Below, in pieces: positions 5,585 through 32,580 of a DNA stretch of 64,000 bases; position 1 is the stretch's first letter, and every line of letters starts with the position of its first letter. The DNA comes from Dryococelus australis (taxonomy: Eukaryota; Arthropoda; Insecta; Phasmatodea; Phasmatidae), in the NCBI GenBank assembly GCA_029891345.1, contig CM057009.1, positions 289,922,966 to 289,986,965 on the forward strand, given 5' to 3'. The notes under the pieces were generated by a model that was given only the letters and a program-made list of their open reading frames with translations, was not told the DNA's origin and ran no database searches. Position numbers and translations under genes: made by a program.

Positions 5585-5589
5585 TAATA

Positions 5590-7889: not shown

Positions 7890-8175
7890 GTAGCGTTCTA
7901 AAATTTCGCCCTGCTTCTCTTCATCAGCGGGGTTTCATATTCGCCGTAGCGTTCTAAAATTCCGCCCTGCTTCTCTTCATCAGCGGGGTTTCATATTCGC
8001 CGTAGCGTTCTAAAATTTCGCCCTGCTTCTCTTCATCAGCGGGGTTTCATATTCGCCGTAGCGTTCTAAAATTTCGCCCTGCTTCTCTTCATCAGCGGGG
8101 TTTCATATTCGCCGTAGCGTTCTAAAATTCCGCCCTGCTTCTCTTCATCAGCGGGGTTTCATATTCGCCGTAGCG
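7890..8175. repeat. 56-bp tandem array, five units
   Basis: The unit GTAGCGTTCTAAAATTTCGC...CATATTCGCC begins at 7890, 7946, 8002, 8058 and 8114, with a sixth partial start at 8170. Units differ at only one position by eye (TTTCGCC versus TTCCGCC), so the array is young. The period is not a multiple of three. On the minus strand a frame reaches 8122 from 8457 and ends in the array (RRRYGEYETPLMKRSRAEF). The array may therefore have grown from the 3' end of a transcribed sequence. Confidence 0.9.
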
Positions 8176-10704: not shown

Positions 10705-12480
10705 TACAAGAACCATCGGCAATGCCATCCCCTCGGCCAAAGAACAGGAAAGAATACAAAAGTGGAAAGGCTTGTTGGGTCCTTCTACGTGGGCGTACGC
10801 ATCCGCTGCTTGGCAGCGCGAGAATAGTACAGTCCCGAAAACATTTTTTTTTTTATTTCAACGCTTTAAACGATATGTTTATCTGTAAGTGTTAAGAATC
10901 GATTCCATGTCCTCTCCGAATGCGATTCTGGCATGCTACAGCATTGTCTTACACGCTCAGCTAGTTGATAAAATATTATTTACTTCCCCTGATATTTTTT
11001 TCCGGCCCACTCTTCAAAATGGTTTATTCACAATCACCTTATCAACTGCCATAAATTCGTATGGCTTAAGCGGTCAGAAAGTATGCATATCCACTAGGCA
11101 GTGTTTCGCATCAATAATTGTTTACGTGCTTCGTAATTCAGTGCCCAAAATACTAACTAAATAGTTTTAGCAGCAGCCCCACTCTACTGTTCGTTTATAA
11201 CCACCTCACCTCCTGAAAGATATGATATTATTTAATAAATATCTGAGCGATTACACAGTTGTAGAATATGGTTTAGAACGAACTTGATAAAACGTCAATA
11301 TCTTTTTTTTTTACGTTGAATCAACCAGGTCTGCATGTTAACTGACATCGCGTTCATTCACATGAATAAAAAAATAAAAACAAAAGTGAAAAAACAGTGA
11401 TTGAAAATGAACCATGAACCACAAATCACGTCATGTTTTTGGACTGACAGTGGTTATAAGAAGGGAAAAAACTATTCTTTAACAACCGTCTAAAGGTGTA
11501 ACTGCTAAGTTAGTTTCGTGGGCCCACATATGTACTTTTATTTTCGAAGTCTCCAACGAGTGTACCAGCATAACACGTAAGTGAGTCTCATTTGGTAGAG
11601 ATTTTGAAGTCAAATTCAACGAGCTTCCGATTTTAGAAATCGGCCAAATGGTTCGCAATAATTATGTTTGGAATTTGAGGCCTCCTGCAAATTCCCAAGT
11701 GCTTCTAACGCCAATTTTATTTTTATTTTCTGCGATGCTTAGAAACGGAAAGTGAAACATGTAATGGTTTTAGCAGGTTGTCGATCGACTGAAACACGCC
11801 TCGTAATTGTGGTACCTTTTTCATTGTTATAAGTGAAATTTTAATCTTCGAGATGGAATTGTAGCGCCATATTTTGCATAATCTGAAATACTCAAGATTG
11901 GTTTCGGTTAAAATTTTAATTGGAATTCAAATCACGATCGAAATCGGTCAAATGAAATTTGCTTTAGAATTCGAGGCCTTCTACTGAGCGCCCTGTACTT
12001 TAAATGGGATTATTTCCTTTCTTAATTTCCAGGTGTGGTAATAAAAAGACGCAATTCGGAATATTGGGACTCTAAACCTTCTCGGACAAAGATCCTAGAC
12101 TGCTCAATTGAGAGGATATTTGCATTTATAGCCACAGTTACTCGCTTTTTATAACCCCTGGCCATACAGTTATACCGACATTATCTTTGAGTTCGTGCCT
12201 CGCTGATTCAGTTTGTAAAAACAATTTTATTTTCGTGAATGTACGCCAGATTGTGATGGTGCTCTCCATATTGAAAAACCTCCAACAATATATTCAAGTT
12301 ATCCGCTCAGCACCGCCTTTATTTCAGGTTTTTAAACTCTTTATATTGCTGAGTTAGTTCTGTATTGGTTCTCGAATACAGGGTTGCGCTGAGTTCTTTT
12401 CTAGCATAGTAACTGGCCGTCACTACCATCTTTTAAGTAAGGAAGTAATCAAAGGTAATATACAGTGCATAATACGAATA
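10705..12480. other. no gene recognised
   Basis: AT-rich sequence. I see no domain, long open frame or clear repeat, apart from short homopolymer runs. Confidence 0.4.
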
Positions 12481-12484
12481 GATT

Positions 12485-14560
12485 AGTAGTGAGAGCTGAA
12501 TGGTCCTGGCTCATATTCGCCCTTATTGACAACGGGTGTATTTGATTAACCTGGTAATGGTCTCAGTCAGGATAGGAAAAACTGCTGCATCGCCCTTATT
12601 GATATTGGGTGCATTTGCTTAACCTGGGAGAGGATCCCGGAGGCGAGGACCTCTGAGTGCCTGCCCCATAACCACACCACCCCCCTGGAATAGGGGGAGC
12701 AAGGCAGTTCTAAAACAGGAATTGCCCAAAGGGTTAATCTGGAGCCCAGTGTTGATCACATCCGGTGTAAGTGTGCCAAAAGGTTAGAAAGTGTTAAATA
12801 TTGCCAAAAAGCTAAACTATTGCTAAATAAGGGTTAAATTTAGGTAAAAAAGGGTTTAATTTTATTGAAAGAGTTAAATTGATTTAAAGGTTTAAATTGA
12901 TATGAAGGATTAAATGTGTTGAAAGGGTTAAGTGTCCAAAGGGTAGATGTTGCCACTTTGGAGTATTTTGGACGACTGAGCTCTGAGAGATGGGAGCAGC
13001 AGTATATATGGGTTTACCCCTCCTTGGAGCAAGAATGCCACAAGAAGCATTTTCGATGTTGACAGTTCGGTGTCTGGCGATGGAATGAGCTCTGAGCATG
13101 TTTGAGGCGAGGGGGAGAGGTACGCCCTATTCGGAGTCTGACGAGGTAATGGGCTGTAATGGTGGGTGAGGACAGGAGGTGGAGAAAGCAACAGGGTATG
13201 TTGATCCTGGTCGCTGGCTGATGATGTTATGAGCCTGGAGGGTGGATGAGAGGAAGGGGGTGTTGGCATCGGCAGATATCGGTCGGTGTTGGGAGCGGCA
13301 GAGATCGGTCCTGGTCATTGGCTGGCAAGGGAATGAGCTGTGATGGTTGGGTGGGGAGGGAGAGGGAGAGAACAGCAGGTTAAGTCTGTCCTGGTCGCTG
13401 ACCAGCGAGGGAATGAGCTATGAGAGATTCGATACATCGCCTTTGCTGTCCGCCGTAGGACTGAGCATGGAAACGACGATTCCAGGCTGAAGGGTACTGA
13501 GCAACTGAGTTTGGAATGGTACAGCTAGAGAATTTTAATAATCCAGTGTTTGAAAAATAACGAATTTTGATCGAAACTAACATTGCATTTGAATCGAAAC
13601 GAATTGAATAATTGCTAGTTGAACAAATTACAAGCACCAAAAATTAAATATATTCTAAGAAACTAAACAGCAATGAAACATTAAATATAATTTGACAAAT
13701 CAGTCACACACACCAACAATTAACAATGAAAAATTAATTATAATCACACAAATCAATATCAAACAGTAAGACATTAAATATATTCAGAAAAGTTATCATT
13801 AAATCAAGCACTGAGACATTTAAACAATTTTTAAGTATGTTAAACGAAAAATAAATTCCCAATGAAAATTAAATATAGTTATTTAACAAATTAATCACAA
13901 ACACCGAGACATCAATTAAATATTTACTGAAACATTAAATAAACTGTAACATTCTATATCCTTTCAATAAATCTCAGAATTTGTCCATGAAGCATTTCCC
14001 ACATTAGTATTTCTTTAGTATTTGAATTTCTTAGAAAGCCAATTTTACTAATTAAAAAATTAAATCTGTCATAATACATTTTTATACAAATGCACCAGTC
14101 AATTGCATATCTTAACAAGTAAAACCAAATATGGGACAATTTTAATAATGAAAACACTATTAAATCACTTCTATATTATTAATTTGAAAAATTGATCAGA
14201 AAATGTACTCACACACGCAATGCTATTTAGTTATAACTTCATGTCTTTCCCACCTCATATTGCTATTTCCCACCTTGTGTAATTGATTCACAGCACTGTT
14301 AAAGTTACATAAATCTACATACATTATAGTACTCGTGTTGAAGTGGAGGCCATTCCTCCTTGTGACACTGTTTTTATAGGTATGTCAGTCATCCAGCAGC
14401 AGCACACATATCTAACATGCTAGTTCCATCACAGCTGTTGAAAACATATTATCTAATAGTGTATAGTGGTTTTTCATTTGATTGTACAACTTTTGATGAA
14501 AATATGTGGTTTGATAGAATATATTTTTTAATTGTCATATGTTTTTTAAAGAACTTAGTG
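12485..14560 (-). repeat. left long inverted arm (probable Polinton TIR)
   Basis: The reverse complement matches the right arm in order. The parts are a conserved outer end, a block of TTTAACCCTTT-like units, a CT-rich minisatellite (about 13080-13400), an A/T minisatellite of ATATTTAATGTTTCATTG units (about 13640-13960), and an inner unique block. Aligned blocks agree at roughly four bases in five by eye. A short frame beginning VLVICSTSNYSIR (13380-13640) has a counterpart in the other arm. Confidence 0.75.
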
Positions 14561-14564
14561 CGTG

Positions 14565-15270
14565 ACTAAATACCACTGTCATGTCCTGCCCTGTTAATCA
14601 TATACACTTAATTCAAGTCAGAAAACATTAGTTGAAGTAATAATTATGCTCAAACATGTTCACTATTCTATAGTTATTATCTTTAATTCTAGTTAAAATG
14701 TGTATATGTTTAGCACAGTGGTTGGGCTATTGTTATGTGTATTCCCCTGTTGTATTTTCACAAACTTAACTAGGCATTTGTACACTGTAATGGCATTGAG
14801 AATTAAAATAAAAACACACACACTGATTGATTTAACATCTTTTATTTTCTTACTTTTTTTGGTAATATCCAACACACTATGTACACCAATAAACAAAAAC
14901 CCTTTTAAAATTTTTCGGATCACAACTATTCTTTCGAAGGTCTTTTGGTATTATGAATATTAATCACTTTAAGATTTAAAAAAATTTTATAAAACATTAT
15001 TTACAGTTGACACTAATAATTTCATTATTTATAGTTATTTTCTCAAATTCGGGTAATTATTTCAATCTTATCTATATACACTTATTTTCTCATATTCGGG
15101 TGATCACTTCAGTCTTCTCAATTTACACTTAACTTGTCATAATCGGGCGGTTTCCAAAACACACAGCTGTAGAAGTGGAACAGAGGAGACGAAACAGGCT
15201 GGAACTTTGCGAAACTGTCTTTGTCCTGGAGTAGCAGATAAATGTTGTTTACAAAGTAATAGGCAATAAC
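14565..15270. other. AT-rich inner flank of the left arm
   Basis: Lies between the left arm and the minisatellite downstream of the polymerase. No coding family is recognised. It belongs to the Polinton span if the arms are its ends. Confidence 0.35.
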
Positions 15271-15399
15271 ACCCCTAGCAGGCAGGTGGGAGGTGGACCA
15301 CCCCTGAAAGACAGGCAAATGGACATGCTCGCCGCTCAAGCATATAGAGATGCGGTGGTGTGGATAGTGAGTTGACTTCAGATGGAGACAGGTCCTCAG

Positions 15400-15475
15400 T
15401 TCGATTGGCGACTAGCGATTCTGCTGTGCCCTCGCAGCAGTTGTAACAGATGTTGGTAAATTCTGGCCTCGCAGT
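15400..15475 (-). repeat. short inverted partner of 26380-26445
   Basis: On the minus strand CTGTTACAACTGCTGCGAGG and GAATCGCTAGTC match CTGTTACGAGGGC and GATTCGCTAGTC near 26390-26437 on the plus strand. The inverted symmetry of the element may thus reach further inward than the main arms. Confidence 0.4.
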
Positions 15476-15559
15476 GAGGCAGGTGTTTGGTTCGATTCTG
15501 TCCACTGGCTATTCCACTAGAAAACTGTTACAGCACTTGTAACAGATGATGTAGATATA

Positions 15560-15725
15560 CACTCGGAAAAGCTATTCATGAAGGCAGTCAGTTGTTGTGG
15601 CAGTTGGCATTCTGGTGTTGGTACAGATGATGAATGCAGACGGTTTTGGCAGTTGACTCGCTGGTGTTGGTGCAGATGATGAAGGCAAACAGTTGTTGTG
15701 GCAGTTAACTCGCTGATTATAACAG
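15560..15725 (-). repeat. ~57-bp minisatellite just past the polymerase end
   Basis: About three units of AGTTAACTGCCACAACAACT...TTCATCATCTGCACCAACACC on the minus strand, directly downstream of the polymerase C-terminal block. It is probably part of the element. Confidence 0.65.
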
Positions 15726-15777
15726 GCATGCTGGTTTTGTTGCATTGAGTAAGGGGTTTGAAAAAATTTAGGTTGTG

Positions 15778-18700
15778 ATGTGGTAGTGCCCCCAAGGCAA
15801 CATGCCATCTAGCTCAATTAAATGTTTGTCACCGAAGCTTGACAAAGCCACCTTTGTCACACATTCGGTGTAGACTTCGTGGACACGTGAATAAAACTGA
15901 AATTGGGCTTCCAGTAGACTTTAACTGTTCTCGAGGCATTTCTGATAATCCTTGTAATTGAGCGACTGCAACACACTAGGCTTTACACCTTTTGCTTTGC
16001 GTATACACTGTCGATTTGCAACAATGCATGCTTAAAGTTTGGGATGTAGGCCTACAAAATGTGTGGTAATGCAGCCGGCACATTCATCCTTCATCACTCC
16101 CGCTCACCTTTATTCACTATTTTGATTCCTTGCAGATTATCGGGCACATATATGAAAGTATTAAACTGCACTTTCAAATCTGAGGATTCATCTTTATATA
16201 TGTCATGGCAGGCTATTTCATACAGGAGGGAATTGGTATCGCAGTACAGAAGGTGTAAAACTGGCCAAGGAAACTTTTTACGCATATAGTTATAGTGTAT
16301 CTATTACAGGGTTAATTTTGAGAAGTTCAAAATAGCAACACTGGTTTACAAAGGCTTGTTAAATGCAATAGATCTCTTTGACATCTCGATCGGGACTAGA
16401 GTTTTATCGATGTTACTCCTTGCCTTGAAAGTCGGATGTCCAATCAATTCTGCTGCCCTGTAAATCTTGTCATACCGCAATATGACTCCAATGTCCCTTT
16501 ACTGGTGGACATTCTGCAAAGTTTTTCATGTATTGAATTATTCATCAATTTAAAAAAAACATTTCTCAAAGTTTTTCACAGCCTGGGCATGTTTCTCAAT
16601 GTTAAAATATATGTACAGATCTATCCACGCATATTGTTCAAAGCACAAAATACAATTAACAGCATCGAGTTTGGCTCCATACTTCAAATAGTGCCGCAGT
16701 GTTCCCTCGTGTATAACAAAAATTTTCCGTGGCATGAGTGTAAAAATTAATTTCATTTCTCATGCAATCTGTTCGAAGGTATGCTAAACACTGCGGTAAT
16801 AGGAAGCTCTGCTAGCAAGTCGTTATTTTCATTTGGAGAAGACATATAAATTTTCACGAAAAAAACAAGTGTCCACATAATTCTCCATGTTCCCGAAATC
16901 CCATGACGAAAACACGTCTGGCTCAAACCACTTGAAATTGCCAATGGGAACCTTGCAGTTCATGGTATGACTGTACAGCCAACTTACATCAAAGTAAAAA
17001 GTATATTTTCTGCCACACTGGGGTCCTACTCTTCGCCCATGTAAATATTGATAGCTTCCGCACTCCTTTTAGATACCTGGGTAATCCACCCCTAACCCCC
17101 CCCCCCTAATTCTACAAAAAGGTGCATTTCTGGGTCAATCAACAGCTTTAGCTGCGCACATATATTTACAAATAAAGCATCATACGAAAGGGACCGAGCT
17201 GTGATGTAGATGGCGCCGTAATGACCTTAACTTACAAACATACGTTCCTGAAATTTTCAAAAATGTCTGCCAACAAACACATGTCCATGCATAAATAATG
17301 ACTGGCGTACTGCAGTAAGTTTATGCAGTTCAACACATTTCATGTGGTTTGGGCATGAGCATAGTTCTCATCGCTAATGCCTTTGCCTTTCATGAAAATA
17401 TGAAATGTGTAATTTGGTGGGAGTGACATACACATCAGACTACTTAAAGACTTAACAAACTCATAAGGAAATATTCCCTTCCTTTGTGAAAGTTCAAACT
17501 GGGTATCATCTTAAAACAGTGAGCAGGTTATTCTCAGATATGCAGGAATCAAATTACCTGCCAAAGTCTCTAGAGATGCGCTCATGAACTGAAAAGAGTC
17601 AATGAAATACAATTGCATGACTTGTGTATGTCCTTGCAAGTCAGTCCCATTGGGAATGTGTTTGGTAATGGATTTATATTCTTCCAAGGTCAATCCAAGA
17701 ACTGAAATATTACCCCGATTTTTGATTTCCACGGTTCTGTTGGGTTGTGTGATATGTCGTGAAGCCAAAGGCTTTATGAGAAAGTGGGTATCATAATTTT
17801 TTAGGTTATTTACTATAGCCACAATTGTTTTTTGGTACTCTGAATTTTAAATTGCATTTACTGTGTGCAAGGCCTCTGATTTCTCCTGTAAGATGGTCGT
17901 GGTCAACCACAGAATCTGTGCTGAGCTCTTCCTTACAAATATGACAACTTGTTTGAGCCACCAACCTAGCTTCGTCAGTTGTGGTTTTTGGCTTCATCGG
18001 AACAGTCATGCTGTATATTCCTGCAACCCACTATATTAGATGAACTCATTTATTCACCAATTGGTACATATGATCCTCGCCCACAGACTCTAGATATTGA
18101 GATAAAGCTGGCTTTTATGAACACACCAGCAGAAGGTTGCAAGCATATGGAACATGTTGGTTCATAGTGGTTGTGTTACTTGTTTCATTATTGGGTAGGC
18201 AAGTGGACAAAGGTTTCAAATAGCACTCAGTGTCGCAATAAGCAAGGAAACCCAATCTCTGCTGTTTGGCACAATCACTGAATTCATGGTACTTTTCGTC
18301 CCCAGTGGTGAAAGTACAGCGAACAGCTACATGTTGCTGCCAGAGGATTGTGTGTGGTTTGAAATCTTCTCCTCAGTTCTGAAATACCGAAGACAAGTAG
18401 TCGTGACATGTTCTGTATCGTAACAAAATGCAAATGTGCGGTATTAATACTGGCACGAATGGCCAACACTTTTACATGGCGAGCATGTTGTACTGGAGCA
18501 ATAGGAATCGGTACGACTAACCCTTCCTATGCATAATTAAAAGTTTCGTCAAAAACTTTTTAATTTTTTGTCTACTGTACAGTAGACATTGATAGAAATA
18601 GAATAACTGTTCTCCTCGAAACTTTTAATGTCTCTCATTACCACAAGAGTCGACAATCGTCTAGTATTCAGAACCTGATACTGTTTTAGCTAAAAAGAGG

Positions 18701-19185
18701 ATCTATAGGCATTCTTTGCATCAGGAAATAAACCCACTAATATTGAGTAATGAAAGTGCATATCTTCTGGACACTGCACATTAATGCAGGCTTTCCTATT
18801 TGCAATAAACTTTGCCAATTCAGTGTGCATGGCACCAATGATAAATGGCTTATATTGTTAAATGTTGACATCCATACACAATATAAGTTGCATTGCCCAG
18901 CCAATTCCCCTGGCACTGAACTCACCAATTCTATTTGTGAGGTAAGTGACGATGTTATTGTCATACAATTCGCCAACATCGGACAAATGCAGGATGGGAA
19001 GAGCTTTATTCTGAAAGTATAATGTATCCCTAACACCTTCATCAGTGGACTTATTCTTTACAAAATATGAAGTCAAATCAGTTTACGACCCGCTCATATC
19101 GGTAGTAGTAGTAGAAGTCTCTGTGTCTGACATATCTGATTCAGAGGAAGAGCTGTTATTACTAATATTACTACTACTTTCCGAC
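15778..19185 (-). pseudogene. Polinton protein-primed DNA polymerase B, fossil
   Basis: The polymerase copies the element's DNA from a protein primer. Family blocks appear in the right order from 19.19 kb leftwards. First is a Ser/Thr/Asp-rich leader, then an N-terminal block (FQNKALPILHLSDVGELYDN; FSARGIGWAMQLILCMDVNI; a KKA-INV-like segment). A region with the exonuclease-type D-x-E context and HVPYACNLLLVC follows near 18.2-18.3 kb. Next is the Cys/His nuclease-like insert CHICKEELSTDSVVDHDHLT with GEIRGLAHSKCNLKFR (17.8-18.0 kb). Then come NNLKNYDTHFLIKPL and YFIDSFQFMSASLETLAGNL (17.5-17.8 kb), IFVIHEGTLRHYLKYGAKLD and the palm block ending SLLYEI (16.1-16.8 kb), and a C-terminal LPWGHYHI near 15.79 kb. 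The 3.4-kb extent is close to the family's full length. It is a multiply broken fossil with no coding capacity as a whole. Confidence 0.92.
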
Positions 19186-19254
19186 CTTAAATAAACACGT
19201 CGATGCTAAGGACTTGTTGGGAATGACATAACGCACCTAATCATTCCCTCCACT

Positions 19255-19395
19255 TACTCACCGATAACTAGGATTTGAAACAAAAGAGGAGAGCGAATGG
19301 CGGATCAATTGATGAGCGGAGATATCTGCACAGCTGGGAGGTCGGAAGACGAATGACAAAAGAACCGGAAGTCGCACCCCTTTTATAGTCAGCAA
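19255..19395 (-). promoter_or_regulatory. probable fossil promoter and leader of the polymerase
   Basis: On the minus strand CTATAAAAGGGG (about 19377-19388) is a good TATA box. It lies about 200 bases upstream of the polymerase leader. Downstream TCGGTGAGTAAGTGG (near 19260) looks like a splice donor, and TTTATTTAAG near 19190 like an acceptor, so the leader may have been spliced. This is inference from motifs only. Confidence 0.45.
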
Positions 19396-19483
19396 CTGGA
19401 CCCGTAGGTAATTCTAGGGGTTGCAAACGAGTGTAAAAGCACAATATGAACCCATTTGAATATGTTATTCGTTTTAAACACAA

Positions 19484-19970
19484 TTAAAATGTTTTCATTA
19501 TTTCACAAATTGTGTTTTGAAATTCTACAATAACTTTGCGACAGATAAAAACAGTCCACATTTGAATGACTCCTAAAACTATCATGTTGATGAATTTCCC
19601 CCTTCGGCACACTCCAAACATTCCCGAAAATAAATACTGAATTGGGTAATGCTTCATTCGGAGGCACGATTTAGTTTTATTACTGAAAGCAAAATATTGC
19701 ATTCCCTCCCTTAACGACAAAATGTTTGCTAAATGTTTATAATTGTCTTTATGTATTGCTTTAGAAAACACATACACATTTTCAAACTTTAAGCCATATG
19801 GTTTTTCCAACATCGACATAATAACTAAAGTTTTTCCACATGAAGAAGGACCACTTATTATACACTGTAAAATTGGTGTTAAAAGTATACCATGTTTCTG
19901 TTTAATTATGTTTCCTTTCGTAGATACAATTACCGTAAAATGCACACTTTGTTTTACAACCTTCATTGTT
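19484..19970 (-). pseudogene. Polinton packaging ATPase (FtsK/HerA-A32 type), fossil
   Basis: The N-terminal part carries a clear Walker A motif, GPSSCGKT, after the strand CIISG. Then come MLEKPYGLKFENVYVFSKAI and NYKHLANIL, which fit the genome-packaging ATPases of Polintons, poxviruses and other double-jelly-roll viruses. In such viruses this enzyme drives DNA into the capsid. The recognisable part is about 160 residues, shorter than the usual 220-280. It lies upstream of the polymerase on the same strand, and its 5' edge faces the divergent plus-strand block across about 80 bases. It is a fossil and broken; the family call rests on the Walker A context and neighbourhood. Confidence 0.82.
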
Positions 19971-19984
19971 TTTAACGTACTGAA

Positions 19985-20035
19985 GTAAAAACTATAAATG
20001 GTAACCTATATAAAGGAGCGCATTCAGTCGAAAAC
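19985..20035. promoter_or_regulatory. divergent promoter between ATPase and plus-strand block
   Basis: Plus strand: TATATAAA at 20007-20014 followed by TTCAGTC at 20023-20029, a TATA box plus arthropod initiator (TCAGT). The spacing of about 17-20 bases is a little short. Minus strand: a weaker TTTATAGT lies near 19990. The two gene blocks diverge here. Confidence 0.5.
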
Positions 20036-20039
20036 AAAT

Positions 20040-20550
20040 GTCGCGGAGTATTGAATACATTGATTTATAAATCACGATTTGAATTGCATTTACCAAAATA
20101 CAATTACTGTGGTCCAGGGAAAAAAAAAATTGCAAAACGTCTAGAATGCAACAATCAAGGAATAAATGCTTTGGATAAAACGTGTAAATTGCACGATATA
20201 GTTTATGCTCAAACATAGCAGATACGATTCTAGCCGATAATACAGCGACTATAAGGAAGAATCCATCCACATCGACAGGTGAAAAGCTCGGCGCTTGGGA
20301 CGCAGACAAAGTAATGTGAGCAGAATTCAAAAGAGGTATGAGGGTAAAATACAAGACAAAGAGAGAAATCAAGAGAGGTTGGATATTGCCATTAATTTCC
20401 CCACTTTATCAACCCTTGGAGAGCTAATGGGTGGAGTTTCAGCCCTTAGTAGAGCAGTTAAATCAAGTGAGAAATTAATGTATCTTAAACTATACAAAGT
20501 TGGAAAAAGACGAAAAATCTCCAAACGTGGGAAGACGCACAGAAAGTCTT
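20040..20550 (+). pseudogene. phospholipase-A2-like virion protein, fossil
   Basis: Begins with RGVLNTLIYKSRFELHLPKY followed by NYCGPG, the calcium-loop style motif (YxGPG) of parvovirus-type phospholipase A2 domains. Then come a K/R/C segment, a CKLHDIVYA-like segment matching the catalytic HD block of that family, and AD-ILADN-like helices. A basic, Lys-rich C-terminus resembles minor capsid proteins. In parvoviruses this domain breaches the endosomal membrane during entry. Here it lies first in the plus-strand block, directly before the protease. It is broken; identification rests on motif order and position. Confidence 0.65.
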
Positions 20551-20559
20551 AAAGAAACT

Positions 20560-20935
20560 TAAAAATGTGCGCTCATAAACAGAGAGATTCTTGTATTTGT
20601 AAAGAAACTGAATATTCCATATTTCCGAGGTGTACATATGAAAAATGATTTACCGAAGAAACCAAACCTTCATAAATGTATGATTGTTAGCTTAGATTCT
20701 AAACAAAATAAAGGAACACGTTGGGTTGCAATAATTAAAAATGAACATAGTGCAGTTTATTACGATATTTTTGGGGATTTACATCCTCCAATTGAAATAC
20801 CCAACTATTTAAAGAACACACAAATCAAATACAATTATGGAACAGAACAATTACCAAATACCTTCAGTTGTGGACATTTATGTTTAAGATTACTGACTAT
20901 AAATAGAATATGCATATACGCATCTGTGTAGTAGT
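20560..20935 (+). pseudogene. Polinton adenovirus-type cysteine protease, fossil
   Basis: The protease cleaves capsid precursors during particle maturation. Visible blocks are LNIPYFRGVHMKNDLPKKP, then CMIVSLDS, the catalytic His context GTRWVAIIKN, the YYDIFGD block with the conserved acidic residue, and the catalytic Cys context SCGHLCLRLL near the C-terminus. Order and spacing match the Polinton and adenovirus maturation protease family, and the length of about 120 residues seen is near the compact Polinton form. It follows the phospholipase-like frame closely on the same strand. It is a fossil that sits in a heavily decayed element. Confidence 0.87.
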
Positions 20936-21106
20936 CGTTTAGAAAAATGGCAATTGTGTTGATTGTAAGTGCTAACTCGTCACATCTGCACCCAGTTTAT
21001 TTCCCGATTCGATACATAGATTGAGATTCAGAACGAGTATGTAGGTTGACTCAGATATATTTTTTACATATATATGTTATGCAGAAGGTCATTTGTTGAC
21101 ATTAAC

Positions 21107-21349
21107 TATAGGCCGTTCACGGTGAAGTGAGTACTTTTTAAGGCCCTTATAAATTTTTCCTTTCATCCAATTTCCATCTTCCTGCTACTTTTTTAATATA
21201 AATATTGCAATGTGACGAATAAACACAGTGTATACATTTCACCACCATCAAAATTTAGTGCCTGAGGCTGCAATAAGATATATTTATTAGCGGTTAATGC
21301 CTGTTGGAAGGGCCTTAAAAAGTGCTCACTTTATCGTGAACAGCATATA
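21107..21349. mobile_element. MITE, short form, inserted in the Polinton
   Basis: Ends TATAGGCCGTTCACGGTGAA and (inverted) TATGCTGTTCACGATAAAGT, with a TA at each edge. The interior has the family's ATAAATATTGCAATGTGACG and AAGATATATTTATTAGCGG. It lies between the protease and the zinc-finger frame, so it arrived after the Polinton. Confidence 0.88.
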
Positions 21350-21473
21350 TACTCTTTAGCGTTAAAAGAATCACATTTATACAGAAATATTGTTACTTGA
21401 CAGCATGAGGTGAACATCGATTAGCAAGTGAATATTATACCAAATATTATTCAAACGACTGACAGTGGTGAGA

Positions 21474-21731
21474 ATGGAGATGGAGTCATCATCGAATCGC
21501 CATCAGTGTAGATATTGCGACAAAGTATGTGCATTCGACTACAATGCACGACATCATGAGACGAGCGAAGGTTCGGAGAATTCATCTCGGGTGATATTTA
21601 GCTGTAAAAACTGTGATAGACAGTTCGCAAGAGGTGATAACTTAAATAGACATTCCAAAGTCTGTAAATATTTTATTCCTGTCGAGAAACAACGTGTAAC
21701 GAATTTTCATTTTGACAATATGCTCGCATAA
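21474..21731 (+). pseudogene. C2H2-type zinc-finger frame inside the Polinton
   Basis: An ATG at 21474 opens MEMESSSNRHQC. One finger-like unit (CRYCDKVCAFDYNARHHE) is followed by a clearer one, FSCKNCDRQFARGDNLNRHS with a final KVC. Zinc-finger frames occur as cargo or accessory genes in insect Polintons, and its position in the plus-strand block supports that. It could instead be a host fragment carried along. Role unknown, perhaps DNA binding. Coding-like sequence continues rightwards to about 22140 without a recognised domain. Confidence 0.5.
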
Positions 21732-21734
21732 GGC

Positions 21735-23330
21735 GAGGGAACTCTCTTGAATACAAACAACTAGCAGTATAACATACAAACGATCAATATGAAATATGCA
21801 CTTTCTAAACTGTCGCGTGAACCTACGGATCTTTGAAAAAAATATTGTAGCACTAGTAGTTGCGAAGACAAATGTCGCCAACAATATCCTGCCTTCAAAG
21901 GAAAGTAAACTTGTTATTTATTACGACGCAGGAAGTGAAGACCAAATTGATGATGGCAGTAATAATGTCGAAGACTATGATGCTATGCTAAAAAAAAAGG
22001 TGGTGTAATTAATGCAGAAGATGACAAGATCGTGCACTACATCTGTCCTGAAATCCCCAATGAACTTATTGTTAGGCCTAGACATTTAATCGGCCTGCAT
22101 AGTAAGGAGATATTTTCAATTATTAGTGTGCTTAAAGAATGGGTCTCTATCGAATGAAACAATTGAAGTATTATCTGCAAACACCAGAGAAACATAAAAC
22201 CTGTATATATGGAAAAAGTGGAACAGCAAAATTATGTTGTTTTAATTTAGTGAACTATACCTTACTGAATTTCTGAAACAGTAATTATTTCAGAGGTATA
22301 TAAAATGGAATGTAAGGATCTATTTTAGGTAAACAAAAAATGCATAAGAGCGTGAACGAGGGGGACTATAGTTCAGTCGGAAGTGTTAGGTCTCTCTCTG
22401 ATTGTTTAAGTCGGCTGAGTTTGGAGTGACAAACATCCGAACTGAGGGATGCGGAATAAGGATTGAAGAATAAGGGATGTTTTTCTATGATATGTAGAGT
22501 AGTAATTTCATACAGGCGCGTGTCATTGCATAAGGTTTGTCGCAAAAGTGAATACCGATAATGGATTATATAGCTCTCGCTTCTAATCCTCGGAAAACCA
22601 ACAAACACTATACATGAATTCTAATTTACAAATGCTCACTAAGTATTTTCACTGGATTTAGAATTATTTTTTAATGAATCAGCCTTTGTTAGTGTAAATG
22701 CAGTGTGTCTTTGTAAATGAAACTCAATGTCATGGTAAGCTCACATGGTGTAACGATCAAAACAAAAGTAATAAATTGGATTACAGTTTTCCATTTATTT
22801 GAGGCAGAACAACAAATAATAACTTTTCTTGTGAAAATAACGTCATACGAACAAGTATTACAAACACTGTGAGGTTGCAAACCTGCACTCATTGTTAGGG
22901 AAACATGCAGAAGTCAATAAAACACTGAAATAGTTTCAATTTATTTATTGTATACTAAACATTACGATACATTTTGATTACGTGTACAGACATACACTAA
23001 CATAACACTTTAAGAGACTAAATGACATACACAAGTCACTTGTGTCAATTAAACCATGTACATGATGCACCACAAGTTAATACTACACAAAATTTCCAAA
23101 GAGTGTATCAAAATTAAATATTACACAATGATATAACAATCAAACATTGAAGTGGAAATATACTACAACTGTCATTTCAAAAAGCTACGTCATGTGAATG
23201 GCTGTATATCACCTTTCTTCTCAGCATGTGAAACTAATGTTGAGATGGTCGTTGATGAGACAGGTGAAGAGGAAGTTTCAATTGACAACGTAATACTTCA
23301 CTGCTTACTACTGCTTGTGGTGAGGGAACC
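21735..23330. other. decayed inner Polinton sequence
   Basis: Position implies Polinton origin. The first 400 bases look coding-like but match nothing I know. The rest is AT-rich. This is where an integrase or capsid gene might be expected, and I could not recognise either. Confidence 0.35.
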
Positions 23331-23339
23331 TGCGGTATA

Positions 23340-23700
23340 AATAGAGGAGGTGATTCGCAAGATAAACTCACTTGCGATGGAGAAGCTTATCCCAGAAGTT
23401 GACTACGAAGTGCTGCAAGTAGGATATAAACAAGTTTATTTCAAACCACATGGAGGAGACTTACAAGTACAAAAATGTAATGGTTTTGAGCATTGGTGAT
23501 GTACCTTTGATTCAAACCAAGAACCTAAGTTCGAGGAAACGATAGTTCGCAAAAATAGTGCATTGCGATTCCTGAAACCTTACATTGAATTACCATGTTC
23601 GCTAGAGGACTTATGTACAGCTAGTCATAGCGAATTGATCGTGGAATTACGCAGTAAGGGAGAAATAACCTATAAAATGAACAGTCCAAACTGTGAGAAC
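23340..23700 (+). pseudogene. unidentified coding-like remnant
   Basis: A frame with protein-like composition: EKLIPEVDYEVLQVGYKQVY, FKPHGGDLQVQKCNGFEHW, and after that SALRFLKPYIELPCSLEDLC. No family recognised. It lies inside the Polinton span, so it is probably one of its accessory or capsid-related genes, now broken. A captured host fragment is possible. Confidence 0.4.
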
Positions 23701-23704
23701 ACCA

Positions 23705-25700
23705 TTCGCTAGAGAGAAGCTTGTAACGGTATTAAGCATGGGTTTAGTAGTCGCCAGGGGATGGCATAGTTTCCCTCTGTGTGTAATTGATGGGGGTGTA
23801 TCGTTGTCAGAGCTCACCCCTACTTCATCGACATCTAAGTGCAACACATTTTTCAAGATTATATTCAATGAATAATCTATGATGAAAAGTATTTGACTAT
23901 AATGTATTGCTACAAGTTTAAAACTCGGTATTCCTTTCAGTATATAGATAACTGTTTTGCATGAAGTTTGAAAAAAATGGGAGAAGATAATAAAGTAACT
24001 TGTTCATATATTCAAGGAGTAAATCAGATATTAGCAAAATGTTTACACTCTGGAGTAAACCGTTTAGAGCTTGTCTGGGAAAGAAATTGTCTCGTTATAA
24101 ATTTGGCTTTTATACTGCAAACATTACATTCTTGAAACGTATGCATTTTTAAACTTTGCAAGGAGAGGACGTGAAGAAATGTCCTCAAACAATATTTACT
24201 GTCTTGACAATCACCCTGTAATATTTAATTGTTATTGTGTAATGTACTCTGTAATCAAAATGTATGTCATGTGCTCTCAATGTTTAATGTCTGATGTGTA
24301 TTAGCTTTTGTGATGTCAAAAATGTAAACTTATCTGCGAATGTTTGAAAGCATTAATAAAATGAAATTTCTCAAAAAATTACTCTGCGTTTCTCTGATTT
24401 TCTATGCAGTGTGAAAACCACTTTTTTTTACAGTGTTTGAAACTACGTTTTTAACACTACTATAGTTAATTAAAAATGATATTGAAACTATAATTTCGTT
24501 TAAAGAGGAATTCATTTAAAAGAAAGTGTGTGAATTTATTTTTAAAAAAAATTATTGAAATCACTATAAAGTTTCACCAAATACTAGAACTCCCGAGACC
24601 ATTAAAATTATATGTCTCATTTAAACACTAAAGTTTTTCTCACGTAGAAAATGTATTTTTATCAATTAAAATTACTTGCATGTTGTAAACGTGTAATTTA
24701 ACATGAAACGAAAAGTATGAATTATGATACTAACAATTAAGTTACAAAAACTACTTGATTGAAATTAATTATAATAAAAGCTGGAATTCTATATTGTGAC
24801 AAGTCATGCGTGGGTCCCTCCATTATAGCTGCTGAAATCTACAATACTACTAACTGTTACGATCACACCATATTATAGTTTATGAGAGAGTGGAAAATTT
24901 TGTTCATACAAATCGGTATAACTAAAAGGCCGTTTTTTAGTGAGTCAATGCAATGATTGTGTAGTGGGAGATCTTCGAGAAACTTTAATGGAATCGAAAA
25001 TCTGGAGTGAGCTAATCGAAGATTGAGCAGTCCAACAACTCACCCACCATGGCCCCCTAGTTTCTGACAACAAAGTGAATTTAACAAAATTAAGAGTTTC
25101 AAGCTAAGTCGGGACAAATCTACACGCAATGACGGAGCCCTGATTTCCACATAAATATGTTACCCGGCAGTTTATGCACGCCGTTGTTAACCTAGACGGG
25201 ACTTAAATTCACGTGTAAAATATTATTACTGTAAATTGACTATTTTTTAACCTTAGTAACAAATGTTAAACACATGCCCTAAAGAAACTGGTCTACAAAT
25301 GCAATTAACGAAACTATTTACTAACATTACATTAAAACCCGTGTATGTAAATTGTAAATCATTTGAATTGTTTCACGTGTAATGTACCGCAGGAATATTT
25401 CTAACTTAAGTGATACGCAACAACTGTTTCATGGGATATTATAATTTAATAGTACATAAAAATTGCGATTCGTGAACGACACGTAATTCACTCGTCACAT
25501 ATTTGATTTCAAGTTGAAAAAAATATTTTCTTTTGCATACAATAACTAGCACTATGAATTGCCTGGTTGTTAGTCATATTGAACGTATTGTGTTTGTATC
25601 AACTCCCACGGCACAAATTATTTACACTGCATTGTAAGAAATTATCATTTAATTTTTTGAACTAACTATGTGGATTCAGAAACGTGTTCGAGCCAAGGTA
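23705..25700. other. AT-rich, mostly featureless
   Basis: No coding family seen. A SINE head lies at 24945-25060 and is listed separately. Confidence 0.35.
24945..25060 (-). mobile_element. tRNA-like SINE head, decayed
   Basis: On the minus strand CATGGTGGGTGAGTTGTTGG (A-box-like) is followed about 50 bases later by TTTTCGATTCC (B-box-like). The order and spacing fit a tRNA-derived SINE, with a short body running to about 24945. It resembles family 1 in the A box (GGTGGCTGAG). Insertion lies within the Polinton span. Confidence 0.45.
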
Positions 25701-25841
25701 AAGGTTTCGGAGTAGCCAGGCCTTGGTTCCCGGCTGCTGCTGCAGGGTGCTGGCAGGTCTGCTCATTCACTATCGTTCGCCGAGCGTACCCTCAACGCTC
25801 TGCTCCGAGAGCTGCCACGCCCTTCCAGGGCGGCTTCGTGG
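25690..25841. other. GC-rich fragment abutting a MITE
   Basis: A 150-base GC-rich block (GCTGCTGCTGCAGGGTGCTG, CCTTCCAGGGCGGC) in AT-rich surroundings, cut off exactly where the MITE begins. Origin unknown. Confidence 0.3.
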
Positions 25842-26080
25842 TATAGGCTGTTCACGGTAAAGTGAGCACTTTTGAAGTCCTAGTTACTTTTTCTTTCGGC
25901 CATTTTTTATCCCTTAACTACTATTTAAATAAATATTGCCATGTAAGTAATAAACCCAGCATGTATATTCCACCGCACTCGGAAGTTAACGTACAAAACT
26001 ACAATAAAATATATTTATTGACTATTATTCCAAATCAGAAAGGCATTCAAAAGTGCTCACATTTCCGTGAATAGCCTATA
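25842..26080. mobile_element. MITE, short form, intact ends
   Basis: Best-preserved copy: TATAGGCTGTTCACGGTAAA at the left and, inverted at the right, TATAGGCTATTCACGGAAAT, both continuing to GTGAGCACTTTTGAA. Terminal inverted repeats are about 33 bp, with TA at each edge, consistent with a TA target duplication (Tc1/mariner-like ends). No coding capacity. Confidence 0.92.
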
Positions 26081-26089
26081 ATGGTTTTT

Positions 26090-28645
26090 CGTGGATATTG
26101 CCTTTCAGCTGTCATGGTGGATAGATGTGTTCCGGGCTTCGGGGTCTACTCATCAAACCGTCAATGCTCATTCACCTTTCACCGATCAGATGTGCTGGCG
26201 ATAAATTTTTTCTTCCGTTTACTCGCCACAACACAATCGCTAACTGAGTTCTACACCTGCTTCAATAACATCACTAGCTGCCTCCATCGACTGTTACGAG
26301 GGCGTCTCATCACTCTACCAGAATCTGCTTGTCATCTGCCAACAACATCTACTGTAATGAACTCGACGTCAACTGCCACACCAACAACTGTTACGAGGGC
26401 ATATCGTCAGTCTGCAAGATTCGCTAGTCTGCTTTCCCCTGCTTTGAACCACGGCCTCCACTCGCCTGTCTATCTGCGACTTCAACTCCAACAAAGTGAA
26501 ACACCGAGATAAGTTAAAGTGCTTCATCATCATCATCATCATTATCAAGTACAGTGAGACGTCCATCAAAGTGTAGACGAAGTGAAACACTTATTATGAC
26601 AAGTGCGCATATTCCCAGATGTGTCCCAAATTGTGTGCGTGTGTGTGTGTGTATATATATATACACTCATTCTTGATATTTTGCGTCGATGTACGAAGGC
26701 TTGGTCATGGAAACGGGATTGTTTGTTTTGTAAAAAAACAAATTGATTAGTAACATAGTATTGAGAAGGTGAATTCCGAAAATATCTTGTCCTGGTGTAA
26801 ATTCTGGTACACGTCGAGTCACTAATATCTTTGCTGTGATTACCAAGTTCCACCTTGTCGAGCAAGCGGTCGACTAGCGTGCTATTGGGATTGAAGTGAA
26901 CGTATTGGAAACTTTTCATGATGGAAGTATATATATATAAGGATATATATATGTGTGTGTGTGCTATTTGTATATATTAATAGTGTTAAATATTAGTACC
27001 ATTATCAGTGTGAGTGGAGAAACGCCGATCAACTGAAAATATGAATGAATTCGTGTACATATTTTGTTCGTGAAATAATTCCAATACACTTCCCTATTTA
27101 TTTTTGTAAGTAAATAGTTTTTGATTTGGATAAAGCCGAAAAATGATACGTAAGTGATAAATTTAGGAATGTATTGAATTTGTGTTTGGTTGTTTTTATT
27201 TATTTAAAGCTACCACTATATACAAAGTGTGTGTACTCAGTGGTTAAATTACGTACCTTGTAACACAACCGAGATCGAAACTGCCCAATGCTTAGTATTA
27301 ATTTTTCTTTTGTTTAAAAATGTAGAATACAGGTATGTGATTATATGTGTTAACAGCATTTTAAAATATCAGCAAGCTTATAAGAGGTGTACATTTGTAT
27401 TTTGCCTCCTATATGGCCTACAGTTTGTAGCTGGCTCTGTTAATTTAAATTTGAAGAATACAATTTGATAGATAGGCGTAATGTGCTTCAAATAAACTCA
27501 ACCATGATTAATTTTAAATATTACGAAGATGTTCTGTAGCAAAATTACCATTCGTCGCATTGGCTCCAGAAAATAGGGACTAATAAATTCTGCATTATTT
27601 GATAATTTTAAAACTAAGTGAAAAGCTAAAATTATTACCAATAATACATTCAAAATCTACATACCTAAATATGCTTCATCTGTGGTAAAAATGGAGGGAA
27701 GGATATTAAATTCACACTAAATTCATTACGTGTGGGGTAAGAGGTTAGCAATACTGTTATAATTTATCAACCAAAGATGAATAATAAAATTGTATGTTGC
27801 CAGTAATTTAGTTAATGTTACTTATTTTATATATATTCAAAATTATCACCTTCCATGGCTCTACGGAACACTTCGGCAGACGCCAAGTGTTAGATGTTTA
27901 GGTAAATTTCTTTGTTATTCAGGACAGTTTTAAGTGAAATCTATGGAAATCTGATAACTTTCCTTCACTTAGCGTTGGTCAAATATTTTCTTTCCCACGT
28001 ACAGAAATTGTTTGCTAAACACCCGGGTCACGTTCGTAACACATAAACGTATATACCTCACAAAAGGAAAAATAAATAAATACCGTTCAACATGTCTTAC
28101 TATTCGTGTCTTGAAGGAATGTTTTTTCAACAGATTTGTGGAATCTTAAAACGAGTAATTGTAGTAATATTTTCTTGTTACGTTGTCGACCGTGTGCAGA
28201 GACACAAATGCTCGTCTAGCTTGGAGTAGGTAAAGCTGGTTTGCAGAAGATGTTCGAATGCATCTCCCCCCCCCCCCCCCCCCTTTTCTGTAATCAACCC
28301 ATAACTCTGAATATCGTTTTGAATCACACGAATATTTTTGTCGGCTGCGAAAGACACAGTTCATGAAGGTGTTGACGGTTACCGAGGAAACCTAGGAAAA
28401 GCATCCAAGTTAGTAAAAATCACTGCGATTTTCTTTGAATATGTATTAGTGAACTTACTACTCACTTACAATATTTCAACTAAGACACATCGGGAATAAC
28501 ACAGTTAAAATGTTTGGGTGTGATGCGACAGGGAGAATATAATTTTTCTTGGTTCACGCATCGAACCTTATTTTACATAAACAAAAGATTTTTCCTAAAG
28601 AAACTAAATAATGATCACGTAAAATGTGAATAAATTTGTGGGATT
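26090..28645. other. inner right part of Polinton span, no gene recognised
   Basis: Near 26380-26445 is the inverted partner of 15400-15475. Microsatellites (ATC)n at about 26524-26545 and (GT)n(AT)n at about 26634-26662 and 26928-26963 follow, and a C-run lies near 28265-28284. The frame from 26081 is Ser/Thr/Ala-rich and runs through the shared repeat; no domain is seen. Confidence 0.35.
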
Positions 28646-28649
28646 GAAA

Positions 28650-31600
28650 ACTTGTGAAAAAAAAAAACACTCAGCTTACGAATGATATTAAAGTAACACA
28701 TTCTTACATTATATATATAACAACTATACACCGATTAGATAATATGCTTTCTACAGCTGTGATGGAACGAGCCAGTGAGATCTCCATGCTGCTGCTCTGT
28801 GCCTGGCAGACCAATCAAAACTCTGTGTCTCACGGAGATATAGTTTGCGCTACAACACGAGTATTGTAATGCACATTTACTGACAAAAAGATTGATCAGT
28901 GGTGCGAGTCATTTACACAAGGTGGTAAATAGTAATATGAGGCGGGAAAGACATGAAATTATAACTAAATAGAATTGTGTGTGTGTGTGTGTGTACTTTA
29001 CTGATCAATTTTTCATGCTAATAATTCAGAAGTGATTTATAAGTGTTTTCATTGATATAGTTGTCACATATTTAGTTTTGCTTGTAAACTTTCGCAATTG
29101 GCTGGTAAGTTTGTATTGAAACTGATTATTACAGATTGCATTTTTTAATTAGTAAAATTGGCCTTCTAAGAAATTCAAATACTAAGGAAATAGGAATGTG
29201 GGAAATGCTTCCTGGACAAATTCTGGGATTTCTTGACAGGATATAGAGTCTTGCAATTTGAAACAGATGTCGTGTACTTATGCCTTGATCTGAATTCTGG
29301 TATTTACGGTTAACATTGAGCGGCGTCGGTTGCGAACCTAAGTTGAGTGGAATCAGACTATCAAATGTTTGGCTAACCTGTCGGGGTTGATGTACGCGTA
29401 ATTATATTTGAGTGATATTTAAACAATAAATAGTGATGAGACCATGAGTTTGCATAAAATGAATATATGGGCTTATAACACTAAACATTGTTTTAACACA
29501 GTTGTGTAAAGCGAACAGCTTTGCATACGATCATGGATGGAGGCTTCGTGTGTGTGTGGGGGGGAAGTGAAAGAGGAGAGAGATGGCTAGTAGAGCTCTC
29601 TGCCGCCGGAGGCATGAACTTCTCAGTTCTAGTGCTTTGCCCTGTGGGAGCTGGAGCGCGATGCAAGAGGGTGAATGAAAGGCGTGAATTCTCCTATATT
29701 ACACACTTCTCAAATCCTGTCGAGTTAAAGTCTTTTGTTAATTCTGAGCAAGTGGGAAACATCGAATACATGAAGGAGCATATCAGACAGTCCGTTTCAT
29801 TAAATTTTTTTAATAATATATTACGAAATCACATAGAATGAATCTTACCCTAAAAAATAGTTTACTGTGATAGTATTGCACGAGCTGATGGAATTAAAGT
29901 CATACGATAAATCGTTTACTGGTCTATTGATACACAAATAAACACTAAGACAATTTGGAGTTTTTGTATGTTAGAATATTTTTCGTCAAACAAAGGACAT
30001 GTTGGTTGTAATACACGTGTGAAAATGAAGTAGTAGGTTCGTTAAAAATATGGAAGAACCATGTAATTAAATTAATAGATGGTTTTGTGCATTACGTAGC
30101 GAGCGAAGCTTGGCATAGGGCGGACTGGAGCTTGAGAGCCGATGAGGTGTGTAGTGTATGGCATTCAGCAAACTTCGCACGATGCACGAGGGCGGCGGGA
30201 TACAGGCGTGATCAGCCGTTCTGCGCTACATGATTAGTATATTAGTTTACATGATTGAACAGTCTTTATTCAAATTTACAGTTTACTGAAAGAATATGTT
30301 AAACACATTTACTAAATTGAAATGATGGGAAAACAGTCTTATGGAAGAGTATGTAACAGTTATATGGATGACAAATATTATAAGACACTTTACTGAAACA
30401 GACTTTGTATAAAATAAAATGTAAAATAACTCGTACTTCAAAAAGCGAAATATATACGATGGAACATAGGAGGCTCTCGCACGAAGTGGTGTACACATTT
30501 ACTAAATATTCATTCACAGTATTTATTAATTAAAATAATAAGTGTTAGGGTCTTTGGCCTGGGGATATGATTAATGATAAATTCAAATATGTGTTCAGTT
30601 ATGAGCAGACAGTGTAGGGTGTAGGTAATTAGCCTCTTGTTTTGCATACTTAGTAATTGCTTAATTAATGTTTTGGTAATTTTTAATTAATATCTCAGTG
30701 TCTGTGATTAATTTGATAATAATATTTAATATTTCATTGGTAATTAAATTTTCTTTGCTCATACCTAGTAATTGTTTAATTGTCTCAGCGCTTTTTTTAA
30801 TTATATTTTTCGGAATATATTTAATGTCTTGCTGTTTGTGATTTATTAGTTTTAATTGTGTTGGTGGTTATGATTGATTTGTTTGATTATATTTAATGTT
30901 TCATTGCTACTAGTTTCTCAGTATATATTTAATTTTTGGTGCTAGTAATTTGCTCAATTTGTAATTATTCAATTCGATATTATTCAAATGCAATATTAGT
31001 TTCAGTCAAAAATTTTTATTTTTCAAACTCTGGGTTATTACAATTCTGTATTTCCACAATTCCGACCTTAGTTCCTTGGAGCCCTTCAGCACGGCATCTC
31101 CGCTCCCGCGCTCAGTCGTGCAGCGGACAGCAAAGAAGCAGCATTGAATCTCCCTCAGAGTTCTTTCCCTCGCCGGCCAGTGACCAGGATGGACCTTCTC
31201 TGCTGCTCTACCCTCTCCCTTCCCTCACCTAACATCACAGCTTATTCCCTTGCTAGGAACGACCAGGACAGGCCCCTACCACTCACGACACTGCCTTTCC
31301 ACTCAACCACCACTCCTAGTCATTCCAACATCAGCCAGCTCTGTTGCTCTGTCCCCCTCCCTTCCTCTACCAACTACAGAGCTATTTCCTCATCAGACTT
31401 TAAACAGAATGGACCTCCCCCTCTCCTCACCCTGCCACAGAGTTCATTCCATCGTTTATCTCCGATCAGGGCAGACCTCTGCCGCTCCCCTCCCCTCATC
31501 AATTCTCAGAGCTCATTCCCTGGTCAGACTCCGACCATGGCAGATCTCTCCCCCTCCCCTCGCCCACCATTACAGCTCCTTTCATCGCCAGACACAGAAT

Positions 31601-32153
31601 TGTCAACTTCATAAATGGTCCTTATGACATTCTCGCTCCAAGGAGGGGTTAACCCAAATGTGCTGCTGCTCCCGCCTCTTAGTGCTCAGTCGTCTAACTG
31701 ACTCCAAAGAGGCAACATCTAACCTTTGGACACTTAACCCTATCAATACATTTAACCCTTTCAATCAATTTAAATCTTTAAATAAAATTAAAACCTTTTT
31801 ACCCCAATTTATCCCTTTTTAAGAATATTTAACCCTTTCTTGCAATATTTAAACCATTTTTGCATGCTTACACTGGATATGTTTAACCCTTTGTGCATCA
31901 GGTTAACCCTTTGGGCACTTCCTGTTTCAGAACCGCCCCGCTCCCACTACTTCAGAAGGGTTGGGAGGTGATGGGGCAGGCACTCAGAGGGATGTCATCC
32001 GGGATCCCCTCCCAGGTTAAACATATGCACCCATTGTAAATAAGAGCGAAGCAGTAGTTTTTCCTATCCTGACTGAGACCCCTTCCAAATTAATCAAATA
32101 CACCTGATGTTAATAAGGGCAAAAATGAGCTAGAACCATCCATCTCCCACTAA
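28650..32153 (+). repeat. right long inverted arm (probable Polinton TIR), with extra 1.3 kb
   Basis: Runs in the same block order as the left arm. The inner block begins near TTAGATAATATG (28735) with CAGCTGTGATGGAAC shared, then TACACAAGGTGG, then AAGAAATTCAAATACTAAGG. After an extra 1.3 kb the A/T minisatellite follows (30600-30940), then a conserved frame (VLVICSICNYSIR, from 30936), the CT-rich minisatellite (31140-31600), the TTTAACCCTTT units (31735-31930) and the outer end. The order and orientation make it a mirror of 12485-14560. Confidence 0.75.
29245..30560. mobile_element. ~1.3-kb extra segment in the right arm
   Basis: The left arm passes directly from AAGGATATAGAATGTTAC to the A/T minisatellite. 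The right arm has about 1.3 kb more between the same points. The segment has a GC-rich patch (30095-30235) with a short match to the family-1 SINE tail (TTGAGAGCCGATGAGG) and a frame at 29521-29841 without a known domain. It is either an insertion here or a deletion in the left arm. Confidence 0.45.
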
Positions 32154-32227
32154 TAACATTTAATTAAGTTGGCAGCACTTGCCGTTAGTGAACTGACAGA
32201 ATGGCGTCTGTGTGCATGTTTAAATTC

Positions 32228-32580
32228 TATAGGTTGTTCACTATAAAACGAGCACTTTTTAAAGCCCTGCTTGAGATATACTTGTATGCACGTTGTGTAA
32301 CCTATTATATTGCCTTATTTAAAATTAACGGTGCCATGGGCCTCATTCCTTTTTTCATGCGTTGGTTCAAGTGAAACTGTGAGATTATTAAAAACGTATA
32401 TATTTTACTAATCTGCTCATTTTTACTCTGTGGTGCATTAAAAAACACAAAGCAAAATAATTTATTTCAGTTGTCACCAACTGTTACCTGACTATTGTTT
32501 TTCGGCGTTGAGATAAGGAACTAATTTACACCCATCGTCACTAACTGTTCTGGGCGCACGTCGCTCAGTGAGCTAAAGTG
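32228..32580 (-). mobile_element. MITE, long form, one end missing
   Basis: Begins TATAGGTTGTTCACTATAAA and follows the reverse-oriented long form (CTTGTATGCACGTTGTGTA, GGTTCAAGTGAAACTGTGAG, CTGGGCGCACGTCGCTCAGT). It fades before the second inverted repeat. It lies 75 bases outside the Polinton's right edge. Confidence 0.75.

Follow-up and report, generated by a model that had tools for sequence, protein, structure and literature searches.

The window analysed here, i.e. the whole 64,000-nucleotide stretch of the Dryococelus australis genome at 289922966-289986965 of contig CM057009.1 (C17), holds remains of genes for a family B DNA polymerase, an ATPase-like protein, a phospholipase A2-like protein, an adenain-like protease and a C2H2 zinc-finger protein, enclosed by two long inverted arms. 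Together they span 19,670 bp, from 12485 to 32154, and very probably represent a decayed, dead, full-span Polinton (Maverick) from a lineage with terminal inverted repeats (TIRs) of about 3.4-3.9 kb. We regard it as real, old and member of a long-TIR family, possibly a capsid-less one. The arms, the ends, the 6-bp duplications in relatives and a gene order common to the copies are directly observed. The first-pass annotation had called the element whole-length and had set it at 12485-32153: the start and the 19.7 kb hold, the right end lies one base further, and the wording fits the end-to-end span but not the content, since an inner stretch of the left arm is deleted and neither a capsid nor an integrase gene was recognised. 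Across the window, G+C ranges from 32 to 41% (2-kb steps), and no tRNA genes were found.

Gene content of the element

Seven loci carrying arm copies elsewhere in the genome (copies A-G) were fetched and compared to the window. Copies B, C and E match the window in their arms and, colinearly, in their interior; rearrangements or interruptions are seen in A, D and F. The interior was read directly with arms on both sides in A-F, and one arm was found in G. As a whole, five copies besides the window were read in detail, with gene pieces between the arms.

Gene remains were read from stop-free pieces scanned with Pfam (Table 1). Of the remains listed in the first-pass annotation, polymerase B and the phospholipase-like piece are borne out by matches, and the ATPase-like and protease-like pieces have weak ones. 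The order of six polymerase pieces is shared with other copies; the DNA_pol_B_2 matches are weak, at 0.006 and 0.07, and do not reach the curated cut-off. The pieces are consistent with a family B polymerase of the presumably protein-primed kind. The pieces lying upstream of them in the direction of the gene have no Pfam match and are taken, from their position, as its N-terminal part.

Concerning constraint, the ratio of nonsynonymous to synonymous substitution (dN/dS) between the window and copies B-F, given without confidence limits and mixing change before and after insertion, is 0.31-0.48 for the endonuclease, the presumed polymerase N-terminal pieces (0.42-0.48), the phospholipase, the finger and the pieces after the finger, 0.77 for the ATPase and 0.87 for the protease. 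This is a weak hint at relaxed constraint on the virion genes, weak because the C-terminal polymerase pieces, together with 17340-17510, also have values of 0.55-0.97.

Table 1. Features of the fossil element and its borders (window coordinates)
Feature	Position	Strand	Remarks
Left target duplication, TAGATT	12479-12484	+	4/6 match to right
Whole fossil element, end to end	12485-32154	.	Inverted arms, terminal motif, flanking conservation drop
Left TIR	12485-14471	+	Lacks ~1.4 kb internally near 13941
Polymerase B remains (DNA_pol_B_2), several stop-free pieces	16094-17846	-	Homologous pieces in copies A-F
Endonuclease VII domain adjoining polymerase	17806-18030	-	PF02945 (Endonuclease_7) 5.3e-9
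Conserved pieces upstream in polymerase gene direction	18115-19082	-	Conserved in B, C, E, F
ATPase-like piece with GPSSCGKT P-loop	19484-20005	-	Weak Pfam match
Phospholipase A2-like piece	19976-20218	+	PF08398 (Phospholip_A2_4) 5.3e-9
Adenain-like protease piece	20563-20931	+	Adenain is the best solved-structure match
Later ~240-bp small transposon insert between protease and finger	21108-21348	.	Absent there from B, C, E, F
C2H2 zinc-finger gene piece	21432-21731	+	PF00096 4.3e-5
Conserved reading-frame pieces	21793-22157	+	Conserved in copies; no Pfam match
Conserved reading-frame pieces	23137-23712	+	Conserved in copies; no Pfam match
Second ~240-bp small transposon insert	25842-26079	.	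Related to 21108-21348; no matching stretch in copy B
Longer-TIR remnant, related to 14803-14892	27100-27200	-	Seen through copies B, C, F
Dispersed repeat, right-arm side	27230-28700	+	Common to copies B, E; absent from C, F
Right TIR, full 3.44 kb	28718-32154	-	Inner edge 28717-28719 recurring in eight arm copies
Right target duplication, AACATT	32155-32160	+	4/6 match to left

Terminal inverted repeats

The inverted arms, announced as longer than 2 kb, were recovered by self-alignment as three high-scoring segment pairs (best E 1e-154): 12483-13155/32156-31510 (77.7% identity), 13286-13942/31291-30661 (76.7%) and 13941-14471/29259-28719 (79.2%). These identities of 77-79% count gaps; over 1,797 gap-free positions the value is 81.1%, i.e. 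a Kimura two-parameter divergence of 0.218 which, at an assumed insect substitution rate of ~3e-9 per site per year, places the insertion some tens of millions of years ago, as an order of magnitude only.

The right arm (3,437 bp) is the complete TIR form, while the left (1,987 bp) is internally deleted, being shorter because the ~1.4 kb equivalent of 29260-30660, found in the arms of other copies, is missing. The right arms of B and E run past the inner edge into the window's interior sequence, which fixes that edge at 28717-28719. In copies C and F, the TIR reaches as far as about 14876-14886, and the segment of copy B corresponding to 27100-27200 is related to 14805-14892, which suggests an older TIR of ~3.85 kb; inside the window, 27100-27200 matches nothing. 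The dispersed repeat interrupts this longer TIR in the window, B and E. An insertion into the ancestor's right arm, inherited thereafter, would explain the interruption, the alternative being TIR growth in C and F; insertion is favoured since the remnant persists beyond the break. With about 1,011 first-look places genome-wide, 27230-28700 is less likely to be a right end specific to the element.

Arm trees were built with FastTree and IQ-TREE, the window's left arm being represented by ~530 bp and the D slice left out. For A, C, E and F, both arms of the same copy group together with the two methods, the support being 0.88-1.0 in FastTree and, in IQ-TREE, 97 (the split leaving the A arms together), 100 (C), 90 (F) and 63 (E).

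Termini and target duplications

In addition to the window's two ends, 31 ends in the fetched loci were anchored at 12485. These 33 ends were chosen by likeness to the window end, and the evidential part is the drop in the flanks outside: over 32 ends (the poorly anchored L070 being left out), information content is 0.01-0.25 bit at 14 flanking positions vs. 1.26-2.0 bit at positions 1-7. Conservation ends abruptly at 12485, the start of the Maverick motif AGTAGT, which is exact in 22 of the 33 ends, including the window's left one; the window's right end reads ATTAGT. The alignment of outer edges proposed in the first-pass annotation thus fixes the terminus, and 6-bp duplications accompany it in relatives, with matches of 6/6 in L053 and L054 and 5/6 in L055. 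When the six elements with both ends readable were pooled (the window and five relatives; copy A left out, its flanks being themselves inverted repeats), 27 of 36 bases matched at a length of six, whereas the other lengths were at chance (4/24 at four, 7/30 at five, 10/42 at seven and 12/48 at eight). Ends and duplications are of Maverick type, and the non-Polinton ends or duplication of a foldback-type transposon are not seen. No other transposase was noted, no search aimed at one having been made.

Arm copies elsewhere in the genome

The genome (3.415 Gb, 646 contigs) was searched with the outer 716 bp of the arm (46 rows; best 40 of 1,007 first-look places), its terminal 276 bp (45 rows; best 40 of 201) and its inner 581 bp (41 rows; best 40 of 77), with the interior stretches 22590-24189 (best 40 of 297) and 17471-19063 (best 40 of 4,049), and with the arm-side junction 14480-15480 (best 40 of 67). 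The outer 716-bp and inner 581-bp queries gave 80 arm places, clustered by a 50-kb rule into 52 loci. Eleven of these have both arms, always in + then - order, and all 11 enclose interior, junction or ATPase matches (junction matches only at C4:259587419). Such a match lies within 25 kb in at least 27 of the 52 loci, window included, and among the matches listed never on the outer side. Outer arm parts are also found together with inner ones, and both with the junction on the polymerase side.

Since paired arms face inward and enclose the interior, and since matches always fall on the inner side, the arms are supported as the Polinton's own TIRs, in line with the first-pass annotation, which had advised looking for arm copies flanking Polinton genes; the fixed termini agree with this. 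The opposite outcome it had named, arm copies mostly without Polinton genes, does not apply to the long arms but partly does to the outer ~150 bp, which occur as palindromes.

In protein searches, all of the best 150 of 14,830 first-look places for the ATPase, and all of the best 150 of 16,221 for the protease, match; by eye, among the matches listed, an arm adjoins only the window and C1:259545925. These lists rank other copies first, and the arm-bearing B, C, E and F are not among the matches listed; they therefore say nothing on the share of Polintons with other ends.

Contig C17, with 9.6% of the genome, holds 15 of the 52 arm loci (binomial p 7e-5); it is also enriched in interior matches (12/39, 11/40 and 12/41). 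This may be ascertainment, since a place ranks higher in the lists the more it resembles a copy on C17. Another piece resembling the arm-polymerase junction lies ~20 kb to the left of the window, at C17:289902343-289903103.

Gene-free palindromes

Five places (L051-L055) consist solely of the outer ~130-190 bp facing itself, over 294-413 bp, each with a different length. As the 6-bp duplications of L053, L054 and L055 attest, the outer end alone suffices for insertion. The two ends of one palindrome group together in L053 (at 99), L052 (76) and L054 (56). Two further candidates were found from search matches, at C8:18770372 and, 1.3 kb long, at C17:268591224. The palindromes could be a fold-back product of strand-displacement replication; ordinary internal deletion is the alternative, for which L051 and L055, whose ends do not group, speak. 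No description of palindromic gene-free Polinton derivatives was found in the open-licence literature searched, which likewise yielded no paper on adenovirus snapback molecules or on capsid loss in a cockroach.

Capsid and integrase genes

At a cut-off of 0.01, no jelly-roll capsid was matched by Pfam in 143 right-half stop-free pieces from five copies (window, B, C, E and F), the left half being scanned for domains in the window only; the eight families listed are fingers plus two presumably chance matches. General Pfam scans of the window pieces gave no integrase match, the copies being decayed. Protease and finger are separated by 256-291 bp in B, C, E and F; the window's 501 bp include ~240 bp of later insert. 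The comparator L071 has 2.9 kb there, with a double-jelly-roll piece between (PF21738, 1.5e-15). This spacing is no more than suggestive of a true absence of the capsid gene, because the copies are decayed and the single comparator, L071, has itself a short finger match (24 aa, 7e-5). By eye, no jelly-roll lies within 25 kb of arm loci among the best 126 of 18,148 first-look genome places; these are the best-kept copies, and old relics could be missed. Speaking against absence, one capsid piece of L071 weakly matches L044:4760-4879 (tblastn, 40 aa, E 4e-4), which adjoins copy E, at about that copy's expected right end or a little beyond it.

Proposed mechanism and alternatives

Polintons replicate as linear DNA by protein-primed strand displacement and integrate through a retroviral-type integrase, giving 6-bp duplications. 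By analogy with the group, this element would have been replicated in the same manner, its long arms would have annealed as a panhandle, keeping both ends alike, and insertion would have been carried out by an integrase of that type, with 6-bp duplications. Because neither gene is recognised in the family, other Polintons of this genome may have supplied the integrase, as well as any capsid.

Several observations weigh against a Polinton with TIRs of its own. An integrase was not found in the 143 right-half pieces of the five copies at the 0.01 cut-off; the ATPase-like piece has only a weak match (ATPase_2, 0.0086) and no significant solved structure; the protease piece, without Pfam match, reaches E 0.079 against adenain, which is not significant alone; the window's own target duplication agrees at 4/6 and those of L051 and L052 at 3/6 each; 25 of the 52 arm loci are without interior match among the matches listed; the window's two arms do not group in the arm tree, and those of B group in IQ-TREE alone, at 42. 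Furthermore, the inverted repeat of copy A (L031/L032, C17:68396577-68410755) runs ~450 bp beyond both ends into flanking DNA, within a larger inverted repeat that brings its arms to 5.1 kb. Part of that locus is therefore a host inverted duplication, and such a duplication after insertion might have built long arms from one original end; in the window, where the repeat stops at the element ends, where the left and right interiors differ and where the inner edge is one that recurs in eight arm copies, this origin is most improbable. It is kept for copy A only, being largely refuted for the window. An independent foldback-type transposon, flanking or capturing a Polinton by chance, would account for the gene-free palindromes and for 22 clusters of terminal matches alone, with no interior match within 30 kb among the matches listed; it is nonetheless very unlikely, given ends with the (AGT)2 motif of Mavericks (PMC8097293), 6-bp duplications, and inner and outer arm parts that remain associated, with one another and with the junction on the polymerase side.

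With the Polinton origin of the arms retained, two accounts of the missing genes compete. One is an ordinary autonomous Polinton in which the capsid and integrase genes either degenerated until they could no longer be recognised or disappeared from one copy after another; it is compatible with that origin and has close to an even chance: all copies read are old, the retained genes also give weak Pfam matches, and the capsid-like match beside copy E fits, while the protease-finger spacing, short beside that of L071, and the 143 pieces devoid of jelly-roll and integrase do not. The other account is a capsid-less lineage that gave up virion formation, kept its replication gene partly under constraint, grew TIRs of 3.4-3.9 kb, integrated with the help of capsid-bearing Polintons and shed small palindromes when its ends folded back during strand-displacement replication. 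We consider it rather unlikely: the dN/dS of the C-terminal polymerase pieces and the match beside copy E lowered it and raised decay.

Comparison with known elements

The comparison draws on excerpts of four papers. Vertebrate Mavericks (PMC8097293) have ends that are most often (AGT)2//(ACT)2, a size of 12.7-24.6 kb and TIRs of 46-1,447 bp (mean 402). The element resembles them in its (AGT)2 ends, its 6-bp target duplications, its size and its gene layout, with polymerase B and the ATPase-like piece sharing a strand and the protease-like piece lying on the opposite one; it differs by its 3.4-kb TIR and by the lack of a recognised capsid or integrase gene. TIRs are 232-858 bp in Oxyrrhis Polinton-like viruses (PMC12721341), and range from hundreds to thousands of base pairs in those of cryptophytes (PMC12220804), which share TIRs reaching thousands of base pairs with the present element but are algal-hosted and were found via their capsid gene. 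Hence, the arms that the first-pass annotation considered unusually long are so vis-à-vis the animal elements described in these excerpts, and not in the wider group. The Galileo foldback-like transposons of Drosophila (PMC3573991) likewise have TIRs that are long, variable and repetitive inside and that recruit inner sequence, and they give TIR-only derivatives; unlike the present family, they belong to the P superfamily, with TIRs up to about 1.26 kb and 7-bp target sequences.

A Polinton family is thus added with TIRs over twice the maximum length of the vertebrate survey (PMC8097293), and the series of copies allows the growth, interruption and loss of TIRs to be compared. If capsid loss were true, a virus-like element would have returned to a purely intracellular life with its polymerase kept.

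Other repeats in the window

The two ~240-bp inserts of Table 1 belong to a small palindromic transposon family, related pieces of which lie outside the fossil at 5387-5585, 54923-55025 and 32227-32268. An array of about 7.8 copies of an 81-bp unit (43656-44298) reads without stops in three frames, for 268-279 codons, since 81 is divisible by three. Finally, a 56-bp unit is repeated in tandem 5.1 times at 7890-8175, an array little decayed, as judged from its 98% matches.

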